From positions 1-23,755 of IMG/VR virus record IMGVR_UViG_3300037882_002444: a stretch of 23,755 nucleotides of DNA. The stretch is one strand, 5' to 3'. Made by a program: the position numbers and the translations under genes. Each line of letters starts with the position of its first letter. Within the stretch, counting starts at the first letter, position 1. A model generated the notes under the pieces. It searched no databases, was not told where the DNA came from, and was given only the letters and a program-made list of their open reading frames with translations. Shown here one piece after another: positions 1-14,896 of the stretch. The stretch is from a virus.

Positions 1-44
1 CACCGAGATCTACACTCTTTCCCTACACGACGCTCTTCCGATCT
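1..44 (+). other. Illumina TruSeq/P5 adapter remnant (artefact)
   Basis: These bases match the 3' part of the Illumina P5 plus TruSeq read-1 adapter, beginning CACCGAGATCTACAC and ending in the diagnostic GCTCTTCCGATCT. It is a sequencing construct joined to the biological sequence, so the contig end is an untrimmed read end. Nothing upstream of position 45 should be interpreted biologically. An open frame that starts at 46 on the plus strand is not a credible gene. Confidence 0.98.
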
Positions 45-91
45 CATGGGGTCTGGCTGTCGCCTGGCCCCGGAAGGTCGAGCGGGCTCAC
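45..91 (-). CDS. Partial leftward ORF truncated by the contig end
   Basis: A GTG at 91-89 overlaps the TGA stop of the upstream minus-strand ORF in a GTGA arrangement, the same coupling used throughout this genome. The visible peptide begins VSPLDLPGPGDSQTP and then runs into the adapter, so its length and product are unknown. The call rests only on the coupling pattern and an open frame of 15 codons. It could be chance. Confidence 0.25.
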
Positions 92-2271: not shown

Positions 2272-2657
2272 CCGCGCCAATCGACAGAACAGGCCACACC
2301 TACGGCTGCCGGCGCGTGCTCGGAAAGTCGGATCAATCCGTCACCGAACCCGATGGACGAGTGATCGTCAAGTGGCGCTGCGAGTGCCTCACATGCGGCG
2401 CAATCGGTCACCTGCGCGCGGACAGCCTAATCCACAACGACCGCACCGGAGTTGATGTCTGTAAATCGTGCATGATCACTCGACCTGACCGTGCGCCATC
2501 AGCGGGAAAGCATTGCCGAGTCTGCTACGACATGCCGCACCGTCGCCCAGTGGTTGGGGCTTGCGCGTGCGGAGGTAGATTCGAGACCGAGGTATTCGGG
2601 CCCGCTGAGATGTACCGCGGTTACTCGCGGATTGCTGACTGCGCGGGGGTGATGTGA
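2268..2657 (+). CDS. Zinc-ribbon protein with multiple CxxC/CxC knuckles
   Basis: The GTG at 2268 overlaps the previous stop (GTGA) and has GGGAG upstream; an in-frame ATG at 2253 is possible. The 129-residue protein opens with RTGHTYGCRRVLGKS, then WRCECLTCG, then DVCKSC. This resembles the small cysteine domain (Gly-x-x-(Phe/Tyr)-Gly-x-(Leu/Arg)-x-Val, then Trp-x-Cys-x-Cys-x-Cys-Gly) that accompanies phage HNH and AP2 proteins. The C-terminal half adds HCRVCYDM and ACACGGRF, so about five cysteine pairs may bind two zincs. It directly precedes an HNH endonuclease gene and may act with it in DNA recognition, which is inference. Confidence 0.8.
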   Translation: MTAPIDRTGHTYGCRRVLGKSDQSVTEPDGRVIVKWRCECLTCGAIGHLRADSLIHNDRTGVDVCKSCMITRPDRAPSAGKHCRVCYDMPHRRPVVGACACGGRFETEVFGPAEMYRGYSRIADCAGVM

Positions 2658-3088
2658 TGGCAAAGCACAACATCGGCCATAAGAATGGATTCTGGAAAGG
2701 CGGAAGATCTGTCGCGTCCAACGGGTATGTGCTGGTGCGCGTCGGGATGGATCATCACGCGGCTGACGTGCGAGGTTATGCGTATGAACACCGTCTCATT
2801 GCTGAGCAGACACTTGGAAGGCCACTCCTCCCCGGAGAGCAGGTTCATCACAAGGACGGAAATAAAACGAACAATTCGCCCGGCAACCTAGAAGTGTGCG
2901 CGTCGCTTGCGCATCACTTTCTGAGGCACAGAAAAACCGACTGTCGTCGTATGCCAAACGAGGCGAACCCACAAGTGTTCTGTCAGTGCGGATGCGGGAA
3001 ATCGTTTCTCAAGTTCGACGCGTCTGGACGACCAAGAAAGTTCATCAGCGGCCACAACCAAAGAACCAACAGAGGCGATCATGTCTGA
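2657..3088 (+). CDS. HNH homing-type endonuclease
   Basis: The ATG at 2657 shares its A with the previous stop (TGATG) and follows GGGGGTG; a GTG one codon earlier is possible. The 143-residue protein carries the HNH core: YEHRLIAEQTLGRPLLPGEQ, then VHHKDGNKTNNSPGNLEVC. The adjacent histidines of VHHKDGN, the asparagines of the loop, and the later HHFLRH make up a metal-binding beta-beta-alpha nuclease site. A C-terminal CQCGCGKSFLKFD...GRPRKFISGHNQR segment is a small zinc-binding module often attached to such enzymes. Free-standing HNH enzymes in phages commonly nick or cut cognate genomes and spread themselves. It lies between a zinc-ribbon gene and a DUF5131 gene and overlaps the latter by 8 bases. 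Confidence 0.92.
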   Translation: MAKHNIGHKNGFWKGGRSVASNGYVLVRVGMDHHAADVRGYAYEHRLIAEQTLGRPLLPGEQVHHKDGNKTNNSPGNLEVCASLAHHFLRHRKTDCRRMPNEANPQVFCQCGCGKSFLKFDASGRPRKFISGHNQRTNRGDHV

Positions 3089-6446: not shown

Positions 6447-8864
6447 ATGAGCGAACCAACTCCAATTGATGTCATCGAAGGCCAATCTCGCTGGTCACTG
6501 CATCGCGGCTCGTGCCTTGACCTGCTGCGTTCACTTCCCGACAATTGCGCCGATGCGTGCGTGACAGACGGACCCTACGAATTGGGCTTCATGGGCAGGT
6601 CATGGGATGGCACCGGAATCGTCTACAGGGTCGAGTTGTGGCAAGAAATGCTTCGCGTTCTGAAGCCTGGCGCTCACCTGCTATCGTTCGGAGGTACTCG
6701 CACGTACCACCGTATGGCCTGCGCCATTGAAGACGCTGGATTTGATGTGAGAGATTCCATACACTGGATCTACGGTTGCCTATCCGACGACACCGACGCT
6801 CTGACTAGGCGCGGATGGGTGCGCGGAACTGAATTGCTTCCGTCGGATGACGTGATGCAATGGGATACGGAAACCGGCGAACTGTCATGGGCCAGGCCGT
6901 CGAAGATTCATCTGTACGACTACAATGGGCGCATGGTCCACCTGCGCAATCGCCACACCGACCAGGTTCTGACGCCCAATCACCGCGTGTTCTGCACTAC
7001 CAAAAAGCACTCACGGGAAACGGAGTGGACCCGTGGATTCATTGAGGCCGGGGCAATGAAACGCGCCCATGTAGCAAAGCTACCGATGGCTGGACTACTT
7101 CAGGGCGACGGAGGCCCGACTCCAGACATAGCGTATCTGGTTGGTTGGTGGCTAACCGATGCCTGGAAGCACGGAGGCGGCAAGGCAATCATGTTCTCGC
7201 AGTGCAAGCCGTCTACGCTTGCTAAGCTACGCGACGCGCTAGCCCTGTACTCTCCGTCGGAATACACCAAGAAGCCAAAGAAACCACAGCATGCCGTTGA
7301 GCACACGTTTTACGTGAGCGGCGAGCTAGCAGAATACATGCTAGCAAACCACCCGGATCGTGAACTAACGTGGGGCATGCTGTCATGGAACACCGAGTCA
7401 CGCGTTGCGCTATGGCGCGGGCTGATGGACGGTGACGGATCGCAGCCTGAATGCCAGGAGGCTCACGCTTTCTGGAGTAAGAAGCAAGAGCGACGAGACA
7501 TCTTTCTGGCGCTGTGCGTATCACTTGGGATGCGCGCATTTGATGCTCCGGAGAAGTCAGTTGTCAACGTCAACATCGGAACCGACTCAACGGAGTTGCA
7601 ATACAAGCACCGGGTTTCCGCCCCAGACGTTGACTATTGCGGCAAGGTCTGGTGCGTCACCGTGCCAACGGGGGCCTTCGTTGCTCGAAGGAATGGCCGC
7701 CCATTCATAACCGGAAACTCAGGCTTTCCGCACTACCTAAACGTGTCAAAAGCCATCGATAAGGCTGATGGTTTATCCGACCAGCGCGTCGTAACCTCAA
7801 CCTACACAGCGAGCGGCAACGCTGGAACCTCGACGAAAGACAAGGGCGGAACGTTCGCGGTCGGTGCCGAGAACTCGCCGCCAATTGAGCTCAAGCGCAC
7901 CATCGGAGCCACCGACAAGTCGCGCGCATGGGACGGCTGGGCAACGGCGCTGCGGCCATCGCACGAACCGATCGTTGTGGCACGCAAGCCGTTCGATGGC
8001 ACGGTCGTCGACAACATTCTGACCAACGGCGTAGGCGCACTGAACATCGACGCCTGCCGGGTACCGCGCAACGCATCAGCAGAACGTGGCGAGTCTTGGG
8101 CGAAGTCCGGCAACACCGCGCAACCCGGCGCCGGCAAGATAGCAGTGCCACCTGGCAACGGAATCAACTCGCATCCGCTCGGTGGCTGGCCTGGAAACGT
8201 CGTTATGACTCACGACGCGCGTTGTTCCGAAATCTCATGCGTTCCCGGGTGCCCGTGCCACACCATGGGGGAGATGAGCGGGAATCTGTCCAACGGCGGG
8301 CAGAATGCGACAAGCGACAGGGCCAAGATAGGCGAGCTCTGTTACGGCGAGTACGGACCAGACTCGGAACCGACTAGGTTCGCTGGCGACTCCGGAACCG
8401 CCGCCCGCTACTTCAACCAGTCGCGATGGACCGAGCAGGACGATCCTAACTGGCCCGGATTCTACTACTGCTCGAAGGCCGGAACTGCAGAGCGTGAACT
8501 TGGGTGCGAGAAGCTGGAAAAGCGAAGCGCGGCAAAGCTCACCGAAAGCCATGAGGGCGCGGCGCGGCTGAACTGCCCGAGCACTGGCGCGGGTCGCACA
8601 TCAGAAGGTCGCGCGAACTTTCACCCAACAGTCAAGCCACTCGAGTTGATGCGCTGGCTCTGCAAACTCGTGACACCGAAGAACGGGATCATCATTGAGC
8701 CATTCGGTGGAAGCGGCAGCGGCGTCATGGCGCCAATCCTGGAAGGTTTCCGGTGTATCGCGTCAGAGCTGACCGAGGATTACTGGCCCATCATCGAGGC
8801 GCGTGTTGTATGGGCCGAGCGCGAAAGATTCAACGCAACGAGACAACTGCAATTGTTCGGATAG
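6447..8864 (+). CDS. Beta-class DNA methyltransferase (N6A/N4C) interrupted by an intein
   Basis: Of 805 residues, about 491 are the host protein after removing an internal intein (residues 111-424). Order of motifs: a DGPY tetrapeptide at residues 41-44 in ACVTDGPYELGFMGRSWD (motif IV, normally D/N-P-P-Y/F), a target-recognition middle region, HPTVKP at 726-731 (motif X side) and EPFGGSGSG from 751 (motif I, the S-adenosylmethionine loop). Motif IV before motif I defines the beta class. It transfers a methyl group to adenine N6 or cytosine N4 in a site that cannot be read from sequence, perhaps protecting phage DNA from host restriction. No restriction gene is adjacent, so it looks like an orphan phage methylase. 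The second residue of DGPY is Gly instead of Pro. A ribosome binding site GAGCAGG precedes the ATG at 6447. Confidence 0.93.
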   Translation: MSEPTPIDVIEGQSRWSLHRGSCLDLLRSLPDNCADACVTDGPYELGFMGRSWDGTGIVYRVELWQEMLRVLKPGAHLLSFGGTRTYHRMACAIEDAGFDVRDSIHWIYGCLSDDTDALTRRGWVRGTELLPSDDVMQWDTETGELSWARPSKIHLYDYNGRMVHLRNRHTDQVLTPNHRVFCTTKKHSRETEWTRGFIEAGAMKRAHVAKLPMAGLLQGDGGPTPDIAYLVGWWLTDAWKHGGGKAIMFSQCKPSTLAKLRDALALYSPSEYTKKPKKPQHAVEHTFYVSGELAEYMLANHPDRELTWGMLSWNTESRVALWRGLMDGDGSQPECQEAHAFWSKKQERRDIFLALCVSLGMRAFDAPEKSVVNVNIGTDSTELQYKHRVSAPDVDYCGKVWCVTVPTGAFVARRNGRPFITGNSGFPHYLNVSKAIDKADGLSDQRVVTSTYTASGNAGTSTKDKGGTFAVGAENSPPIELKRTIGATDKSRAWDGWATALRPSHEPIVVARKPFDGTVVDNILTNGVGALNIDACRVPRNASAERGESWAKSGNTAQPGAGKIAVPPGNGINSHPLGGWPGNVVMTHDARCSEISCVPGCPCHTMGEMSGNLSNGGQNATSDRAKIGELCYGEYGPDSEPTRFAGDSGTAARYFNQSRWTEQDDPNWPGFYYCSKAGTAERELGCEKLEKRSAAKLTESHEGAARLNCPSTGAGRTSEGRANFHPTVKPLELMRWLCKLVTPKNGIIIEPFGGSGSGVMAPILEGFRCIASELTEDYWPIIEARVVWAERERFNATRQLQLFG
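6777..7718 (+). other. LAGLIDADG intein within the methyltransferase (residues 111-424)
   Basis: The extein flanks WIYG and SGFPHYLNVSKAID join to a continuous motif found in uninterrupted phage methylases, so the junctions are Cys1 (TGC at 6777) and Asn314 (AAC ending 7718), with Ser as the +1 residue. Block A is CLSDDTDALTRRGW; block B is VLTPNHRVF (Thr-x-x-His); the homing endonuclease motifs are AYLVGWWLTDAW (229-240) and ALWRGLMDGDGSQ (321-333), so catalytic Asp238 and Asp330 are candidates. The C-terminal blocks are KVWCVTVPTGAFV and GRPFITGN. The residue before the terminal Asn is Gly, not the usual His. Block F has Cys where many inteins have Asp, and Thr sits two residues before the last Asn. 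It should splice in frame without phage fitness cost if active. Confidence 0.93.
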
Positions 8865-13583: not shown

Positions 13584-14255
13584 TTGTCCACAGAAAGGTT
13601 GCACGACATGCTGGCAGAGTCAACCGAAACGGCACCGAGACACCGCTACCCACTCAACCGACAACGCGGCGGCTACAACCGAGAGGTCGAGTGGTACCTG
13701 ACGGAACTATCGCGGATCATGGGTGAGCGCTCCAACTTCGGCGGTCTAGTTGCGTCAATCGAGCGCGGTGGATCCGGAGGCAATAGCGGCACCAAGGGCG
13801 TGGGAATGGTCCGAATTGAGCCGTTCGAGAATGCCGGCAACCTACACGCTACGCTCGACGACGACCGCTCGGTTCACGGAACGTTCGCCAGAGCCTACGC
13901 CTGCGAACAGACATGGCGCCGTCTCGGAATCCATAGGCAATGGCGTCTTGCTGCCCGCTACTGCCTCACCCGCGAGAAGCTCCCGCCGGGACTCCATGGG
14001 CAGCTGGGTGACCTATCAGCAGTTGCGTTCGTCGTCGCCTACCAGGCGGGACCAGAACAGGTCCAAAGGCTTTGGGTTGGTGCCGCCAAGAAGGGCGCCT
14101 TGCGATGGGCTGAGGACGCGGCAGCAAAGGCGTTGGAGATCGACCATGCGGTTTGGGATGAAGAGCGGGCCGGTGTGAACCGGAGAAAGGCAACCTGTAA
14201 ACCAGCATCGAGCGAGTCTGTTTACGTTGACTTTGGCAGAGGGGGCTTCAGATGA
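13584..14255 (+). CDS. Hypothetical protein (223 aa)
   Basis: The first start is TTG at 13584 preceded by GAGGGAGAGG; the ATG at 13608 with AGAAAGG nine bases upstream is a good alternative (215 aa). The product begins MSTERLHDMLAESTETAPRH and has a basic middle with WYLTELSRIMGERSNFGGLV, a Gly-rich loop with ASIERGGSGGNSGTKGVGMV, and a helical C-terminal half with ACEQTWRRLGIHRQWRLAAR and ALRWAEDAAAKALEIDHAVW. It resembles no family I can name. Its position, upstream of a zinc-ribbon gene and the packaging block, fits a late-transcription regulator or a DNA-binding protein, but this is inference. ATGA overlap with the next gene. Confidence 0.78.
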   Translation: MSTERLHDMLAESTETAPRHRYPLNRQRGGYNREVEWYLTELSRIMGERSNFGGLVASIERGGSGGNSGTKGVGMVRIEPFENAGNLHATLDDDRSVHGTFARAYACEQTWRRLGIHRQWRLAARYCLTREKLPPGLHGQLGDLSAVAFVVAYQAGPEQVQRLWVGAAKKGALRWAEDAAAKALEIDHAVWDEERAGVNRRKATCKPASSESVYVDFGRGGFR

Positions 14256-14896
14256 GATGCCCAAATTTGTCAGGGGAAAGGTTTGGGCTGCTTACGGTGA
14301 TCGAACGTTTTGGTGTAGATGAAGCTGGAAGGAAAGGCGTCTCTTGGAGATGCATTTGCGATTGTGGGCGCGAGACATACAGATACACGTCGCAGCTTAT
14401 GGCGGCGCGAAAATCCGGATCGGAGTCGCAGTGCAGATATTGTCTCGGTGAATTCCGCCGAGGAAGGCGAGCTGCTGCTATAGACAGGATTCGCCAGATC
14501 TGGATAGATCGCTACGATGAATGTGGAACACTGTGGTCTGCGTTGGAGCTTGAGCTGATAGAGGGAGATATACGAAGCGAGCTAATTCGAAACGGGATCG
14601 AGGCTCCTGACGTGGATGATGTTCCTCCACAGCTACCGATTGTGCTGCACGACAACGAGGGGCATGCGTTTGGGCCAAGTTCAAAAATATCGATGAAGTA
14701 TCTGGCCCTGAACGAAGTCAGAAAGGTTCTATTCTCGGACAAAATCGAAATAGAGCTAGTTCACCAGCGCCGACAGCGCTGGATGCGGGACCAGTTTGAT
14801 GACGCGGATGTGGGTGAATTCGTGGAATTGGGACGTGGGTTCATAAGGACTGAGATTGCTACCGGGGATCGTTTTGGTGCGGAGGCTGCAGAATGA
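14252..14896 (+). CDS. Zinc-ribbon protein with atypical codon use (214 aa)
   Basis: ATGA overlap with the previous gene. The N-terminal 70 residues are a zinc ribbon: SGERFGLLTVIERFG, then WRCICDCGRETYRYTSQLMA and CRYCLGE. The Gly-x-x-Phe-Gly-x-Leu-Thr-Val...Trp-x-Cys-x-Cys-x-Cys-Gly...Cys-x-x-Cys pattern is the small domain often found before HNH or AP2 modules in phages and recurs here at 2268. Instead of an HNH, a 140-residue helical region follows with WIDRYDECGTLWSALELELI. The gene uses AGA, AGG, ATA and GGA more than its neighbours and looks less GC-rich, suggesting recent acquisition. Function unknown, possibly DNA recognition. Confidence 0.8.
   Translation: MRCPNLSGERFGLLTVIERFGVDEAGRKGVSWRCICDCGRETYRYTSQLMAARKSGSESQCRYCLGEFRRGRRAAAIDRIRQIWIDRYDECGTLWSALELELIEGDIRSELIRNGIEAPDVDDVPPQLPIVLHDNEGHAFGPSSKISMKYLALNEVRKVLFSDKIEIELVHQRRQRWMRDQFDDADVGEFVELGRGFIRTEIATGDRFGAEAAE

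Follow-up and report, generated by a model that had tools for sequence, protein, structure and literature searches.

The viral contig analysed here (23.8 kb; the whole stretch of 23,755 nucleotides is called the window) contains genes for terminase, portal, head maturation protease, major head protein, a DnaB-like helicase and SSB, as judged by PHROG matches. On the forward strand, an ORF at 6447..8864 encodes the 805-aa, intein-containing precursor of a phage N6/N4-type DNA methyltransferase. Both ends of this ORF matched N6_N4_Mtase (Pfam PF01555, E 2.2e-16), and they also matched PHROG phage DNA methyltransferase families. The N-extein (6447..6776, forward strand) has 110 residues and terminates in HWIYG. 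The C-extein (7719..8861, forward strand) starts with Ser+1 (SGFPHYLNVSKAID), in agreement with the YG/SGFP found at the junction in intein-free homologs (the slash marks the insertion point here and below).

The N-extein has a motif-IV-like DGPY at window positions 6567-6578 (ORF residues 41-44). The motif could be matched in 74 intein-free homologs, all with DPPY at this place, and DPPY was also found in most of the intein-bearing ones, whereas the window methylase has DGPY. This substitution may give the window methylase a lower or changed activity. The same contig has two more HNH endonuclease-like genes by PHROG matches (2654-3088 and 14252-14896), which are possible free-standing homing endonucleases. 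At the contig end (window 1-45), the first ORF starts with HRDLHSFPTRRSSDL, which reads as translated Illumina adapter sequence. Adapter contamination is probable at this end.

The intein occupies 6777..7718 on the forward strand and runs from Cys1 to Asn314 (314 aa, codons 111-424 of the ORF). All 314 codons are in frame with the 805-aa ORF, and no stop codon interrupts them. Cys1 (TGC, 6777..6779), which is invariant in the allele family, is the putative class 1 N-terminal nucleophile. The block B core TPNHRV (6972..6989) includes Thr66 (B:7), His69 (B:10) and Val71 (B:12), the last being Trp in class 3 inteins. The first LAGLIDADG motif, YLVGWWLTDAW, covers residues 119-129 (7131..7163), and the second, LWRGLMDGDGS, lies at 7410..7442, with its GDG invariant in 19 of 19 aligned members. 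In block F, the family-wide invariant Cys293 (F:4) is located at 7653..7655. Block G ends with Thr312-Gly313-Asn314 (7710..7718); G:5 is Thr or Ser in the family, and the Gly and Asn are invariant. The terminal Asn314 is encoded by AAC (7716-7718) and Ser+1 by TCA (7719-7721). All of these features are on the forward strand.

The insert therefore has blocks A, B, F and G together with the terminal nucleophiles, and it lies in a conserved host protein whose homologs exist without it. The same site and residues were found in 22 other alleles, and the predicted fold agreed. These results confirmed that the intein is real, excluded chance, and indicated that it is intact by sequence. The earlier note had taken the insert for an intein of the LAGLIDADG type and its host for a phage DNA methyltransferase, and this description is upheld by the motifs, the fold and the Pfam and PHROG methylase matches. 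Its boundaries proved exact, since the Cys1 and Asn314 codons lie at the ends, and the flanks are HWIYG/SGFPHYL, which includes the WIYG/SGFPHYL that it had stated. Each of the residues that it had listed (Cys1, Cys293 at F:4, Thr312, Gly313, Asn314 and Ser+1) was also found in place.

An AlphaFold2 model of the intein, calculated with 19 aligned members as input, reached a mean pLDDT of 95.4 and a pTM of 0.92. The top PDB matches in Foldseek were the homing-endonuclease inteins TliVMA, PI-SceI and PI-PfuI, followed by I-DmoI. The model thus predicts a HINT plus LAGLIDADG fold with confidence. Pfam LAGLIDADG_3 matched the intein weakly (E 0.006, under the Pfam cut-off), and the matches of a PDB sequence search were confined to the N-terminal splicing half, with AceL NrdHF-1-1 clear and Mtu RecA and others weaker. 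Both LAGLIDADG motifs have acidic residues, and the fold around them matches I-DmoI and PI-SceI. The intein is probably mobile.

The junction was uninterrupted in all 80 intein-free methylases and read YGSGFP in 75 of them; these 80 were found with a joined-extein (intein-free) query, and their count is no measure of intein frequency. Inteins at the insertion point of the window were found at 22 further loci, and they are 30-58% identical to the window intein. The nearest relative is another IMG/VR intein at the same site (L007, 58% identity). Homologous inteins were also found in mycobacteriophages ShiLan (gp65), Lilac (gp101), Hannaconda (gp142) and Dorothy (gp75), at 32-34% identity and 100% coverage. 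The ShiLan, Lilac and Hannaconda inteins occupy the identical site, W-L-Y-G / C ... T-G-N / S-G-F-P-K. For Dorothy, the matching stretch covers 981 nt (327 codons), in agreement with the 327 aa published for its intein (Gosselin 2023, PMC9957025).

This allele has been treated in several papers. Kelley 2016 (PMC5050341) lists DNA methyltransferase inteins for clusters F1, F3 and E and names DNMT-1/2. Gosselin 2023 (PMC9957025) counted 21 inteins at one position of this methylase family, with Dorothy_75 as the prototype, and described the actinophage allele as patchy and horizontally transferred. The same methylase gene was treated by Arsenault 2025 (PMC11855218). The earlier note had considered the allele undescribed, and it had named homologous inteins documented at this site with the same residues as evidence that would overturn it. 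Such inteins were found in mycobacteriophages and are described in the three papers (PMC5050341, PMC9957025, PMC11855218), and the claim was abandoned. By sequence, the window intein is a divergent new member of the described phage DNA-methyltransferase intein allele at the site W-x-Y-G / S-G-F-P.

In the intein tree, the window intein clusters with seven IMG/VR contigs (SH-aLRT 99%), and an adjacent clade holds the actinophage alleles. The deep joins of this tree have long branches and were left out of inference, and L123 in it is the Switzer primase intein, not a DNMT intein. Between the window intein and L007, the differences per codon position were 0.32, 0.27 and 0.63 at positions 1, 2 and 3; dS was saturated in most intein pairs and gave no reliable dN/dS, so this pattern was used alone. 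Third codon positions are thus roughly twice as divergent as the other two, which indicates that the intein protein is under constraint.

The window intein shares with the Dorothy_75/ShiLan_65 allele the host gene family, the insertion site, the LAGLIDADG domain, Cys1, the Thr-His pair of block B, Cys F:4, the TGN end and Ser+1. It differs in belonging to the separate, 99% supported clade of IMG/VR contigs and in being 13 residues shorter than the ShiLan intein. The ShiLan methylase also has the ShiLan-domain insert, which is missing from the window methylase. An IMG/VR methylase (L003/L011) has, besides the intein, a ShiLan-domain-like insert in the C-extein (YCAIILENLTELEAQ...SLEPVVMARKP), placed as in ShiLan gp65. 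In the methylase of L002/L008, the C-extein is lengthened in frame after SRKDRDEGL by a sequence (SESYVDLTFSAS...VSVEESH) that is missing from the other methylases and is possibly a further insertion element.

The catalytic residues were compared over 23 alleles (the window and the 22 loci). Cys1, Thr B:7, His B:10, Cys F:4, Gly G:6, Asn G:7 and Ser+1 were invariant in all 23, G:5 was Thr in 20 and Ser in 3, and B:12 was Val in every allele, never Trp. Cys1, Cys F:4 and Gly-Asn were also found in other phage inteins that align over the full length, namely those of RDF, ThyX, ribonucleotide reductase, nucleotidyltransferase and polymerase. Among inteins in general, Asp is the commonest residue at F:4 and Cys is the second (review, PMC4031507). 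The sequence features of class 1, namely Cys1, Thr B:7, His B:10, a terminal Asn and a nucleophilic +1 residue, are all present in the window intein. The defining residues of class 3 inteins are Trp B:12, Cys F:4 and Thr G:5, and these inteins do not require Cys1 or Ser1 (PMC5222942), which they usually lack. Like the class 3 inteins MP-Be DnaB and Msm DnaB-1, which have Cys F:4, Thr G:5 and Ser or Thr at +1, the window intein has Cys F:4 (Cys293), Thr G:5 (Thr312) and a Ser at +1. Those inteins need Trp B:12 and not Cys1, whereas the window intein has Val B:12 (Val71) and Cys1. Given the invariant Cys1 and the missing Trp, class 1 is by sequence the much likelier mechanism.

The earlier note had read these residues as an unusual mix of class 1 and class 3 and as a possible intermediate. 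The mix turned out to be the standard of the family, invariant or nearly so in the 23 alleles. Class 3 or intermediate status of the window intein was set aside on account of Val B:12 and the invariant Cys1.

We conclude that the intein is very probably a class 1, LAGLIDADG homing-endonuclease-containing intein and a divergent member of the known methylase allele, its splicing, chemical steps and homing being inferred from the sequence. Cys1 would attack the Gly-1 carbonyl in an N-S acyl shift, with help from Thr66 and His69, and the N-extein would then be passed to Ser+1 by transesterification. Cyclisation of Asn314 would release the intein, and an O-N shift would join ...WIYG-SGFP... into the active methylase. 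Homing would proceed through cleavage of intein-free alleles by the LAGLIDADG domain. In this scheme, Cys F:4 probably has an assisting role, as Asp usually does there, rather than acting as the first nucleophile.

Known phage inteins provide comparisons for the Gly-Asn end. Class 1 phage inteins with Gly in the penultimate position are documented in PMC5050341, which also describes the Bethlehem RDF intein, in which splicing with this Gly is almost complete and the Gly-to-His mutant accumulates precursor. The mycobacteriophage RDF (metallophosphoesterase) intein of the Bethlehem gp51 type is a full-length homolog of the window intein (23.6%). It is of class 1 and has Cys1, Cys F:4, Thr-Gly-Asn and Ser+1 as in the window. 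We read these residues in the intein of the related phage Nepal (L028), which has 317 aa with Gly316 and Arg157, as well as Cys1, Cys F:4, TGN and Ser+1; its length and positions fit the G316/R157 numbering of the tested Bethlehem intein. The RDF intein differs from the window intein in host gene and site, and in Nepal a His lies five residues from its C-terminus, whereas the window intein has none there. Blocks F and G of the window intein are free of His, as they are in most family members. Asn cyclisation would therefore have to be assisted differently than in the RDF intein. The gp41-1 intein, for which a class 1 to 3 transition was proposed (PMC12245125), is a class 1 intein with Thr G:5 like the window intein. 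However, it has Asp F:4 and a penultimate His in place of Cys F:4 and the penultimate Gly.

Homologous phage DNA polymerase/terminase inteins combine Cys1 with the full Trp B:12-Cys F:4-Thr G:5 set and a Gly-Asn end. Their sequences showed Cys1 plus Trp-Cys-Thr in L023, L024 and L026 (3501-4523 in each) and also in L119 and L120. Judged by sequence, these five are better candidates for a mixed class 1/class 3 intein than the window intein. Tori and Perler reportedly dealt with mixed class 1/class 3 inteins in 2011 and are said to have found splicing by the class 3 route.

Three other readings were weighed against class 1 splicing in a known allele. The window intein and the other phage inteins that have Cys1, Cys F:4 and Thr-Gly-Asn could form a living bridge between class 1 and class 3, in which the N-extein also passes via Cys F:4 and the switch is completed by the gain of Trp B:12, a residue that related polymerase and terminase inteins have together with Cys1. 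If true, this would contradict the published argument that class 3 cannot arise stepwise from class 1 (PMC7664689), and we hold it to be very unlikely.

The window intein itself could be an intermediate between the classes, with Cys F:4 as a possible first nucleophile, a block F branched intermediate and a dispensable Cys1. It shares three features with class 3, namely Cys F:4, Thr G:5 and Ser+1 (PMC5222942), and the related polymerase/terminase inteins do pair the full Trp-Cys-Thr set with Cys1. However, three class 3 inteins in which Trp B:12 was mutated to Ala failed to splice and gave precursor only (PMC5222942), and the family has Val at this position throughout. The invariance of Cys1 and the Ser at G:5 in three alleles also argue against this reading, as do known class 1 inteins with Cys F:4, a polyphyletic group in contrast to the monophyletic class 3 (PMC3196547). 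We consider an intermediate highly improbable.

Lastly, the intein could be degenerate or unable to splice and be kept because the phage can do without the methylase. This would be consistent with blocks F and G without an assisting His, with DGPY in motif IV and with the sporadic occurrence of the methylase family among actinophages (PMC9957025), but it deserves very little credence against nucleophiles and block B residues that are all intact and invariant family-wide, intact endonuclease motifs, the constraint seen in the codon-position pattern and the many phages that keep relatives with the same terminal residues.

Taken as a class 1 member of the methylase allele, the window intein reveals no new intein class. 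A patchy known actinophage intein allele now extends to divergent phages from metagenomes and to one Actinomycetes MAG contig, with a residue set (Cys1, Cys F:4 and the Gly-Asn end) that is stable over 23 alleles. The place to study a transition from class 1 to class 3 would be the polymerase/terminase inteins, not the window intein. The allele family, for its part, is a handy natural series for studying how Asn cyclisation proceeds without the usual histidines.
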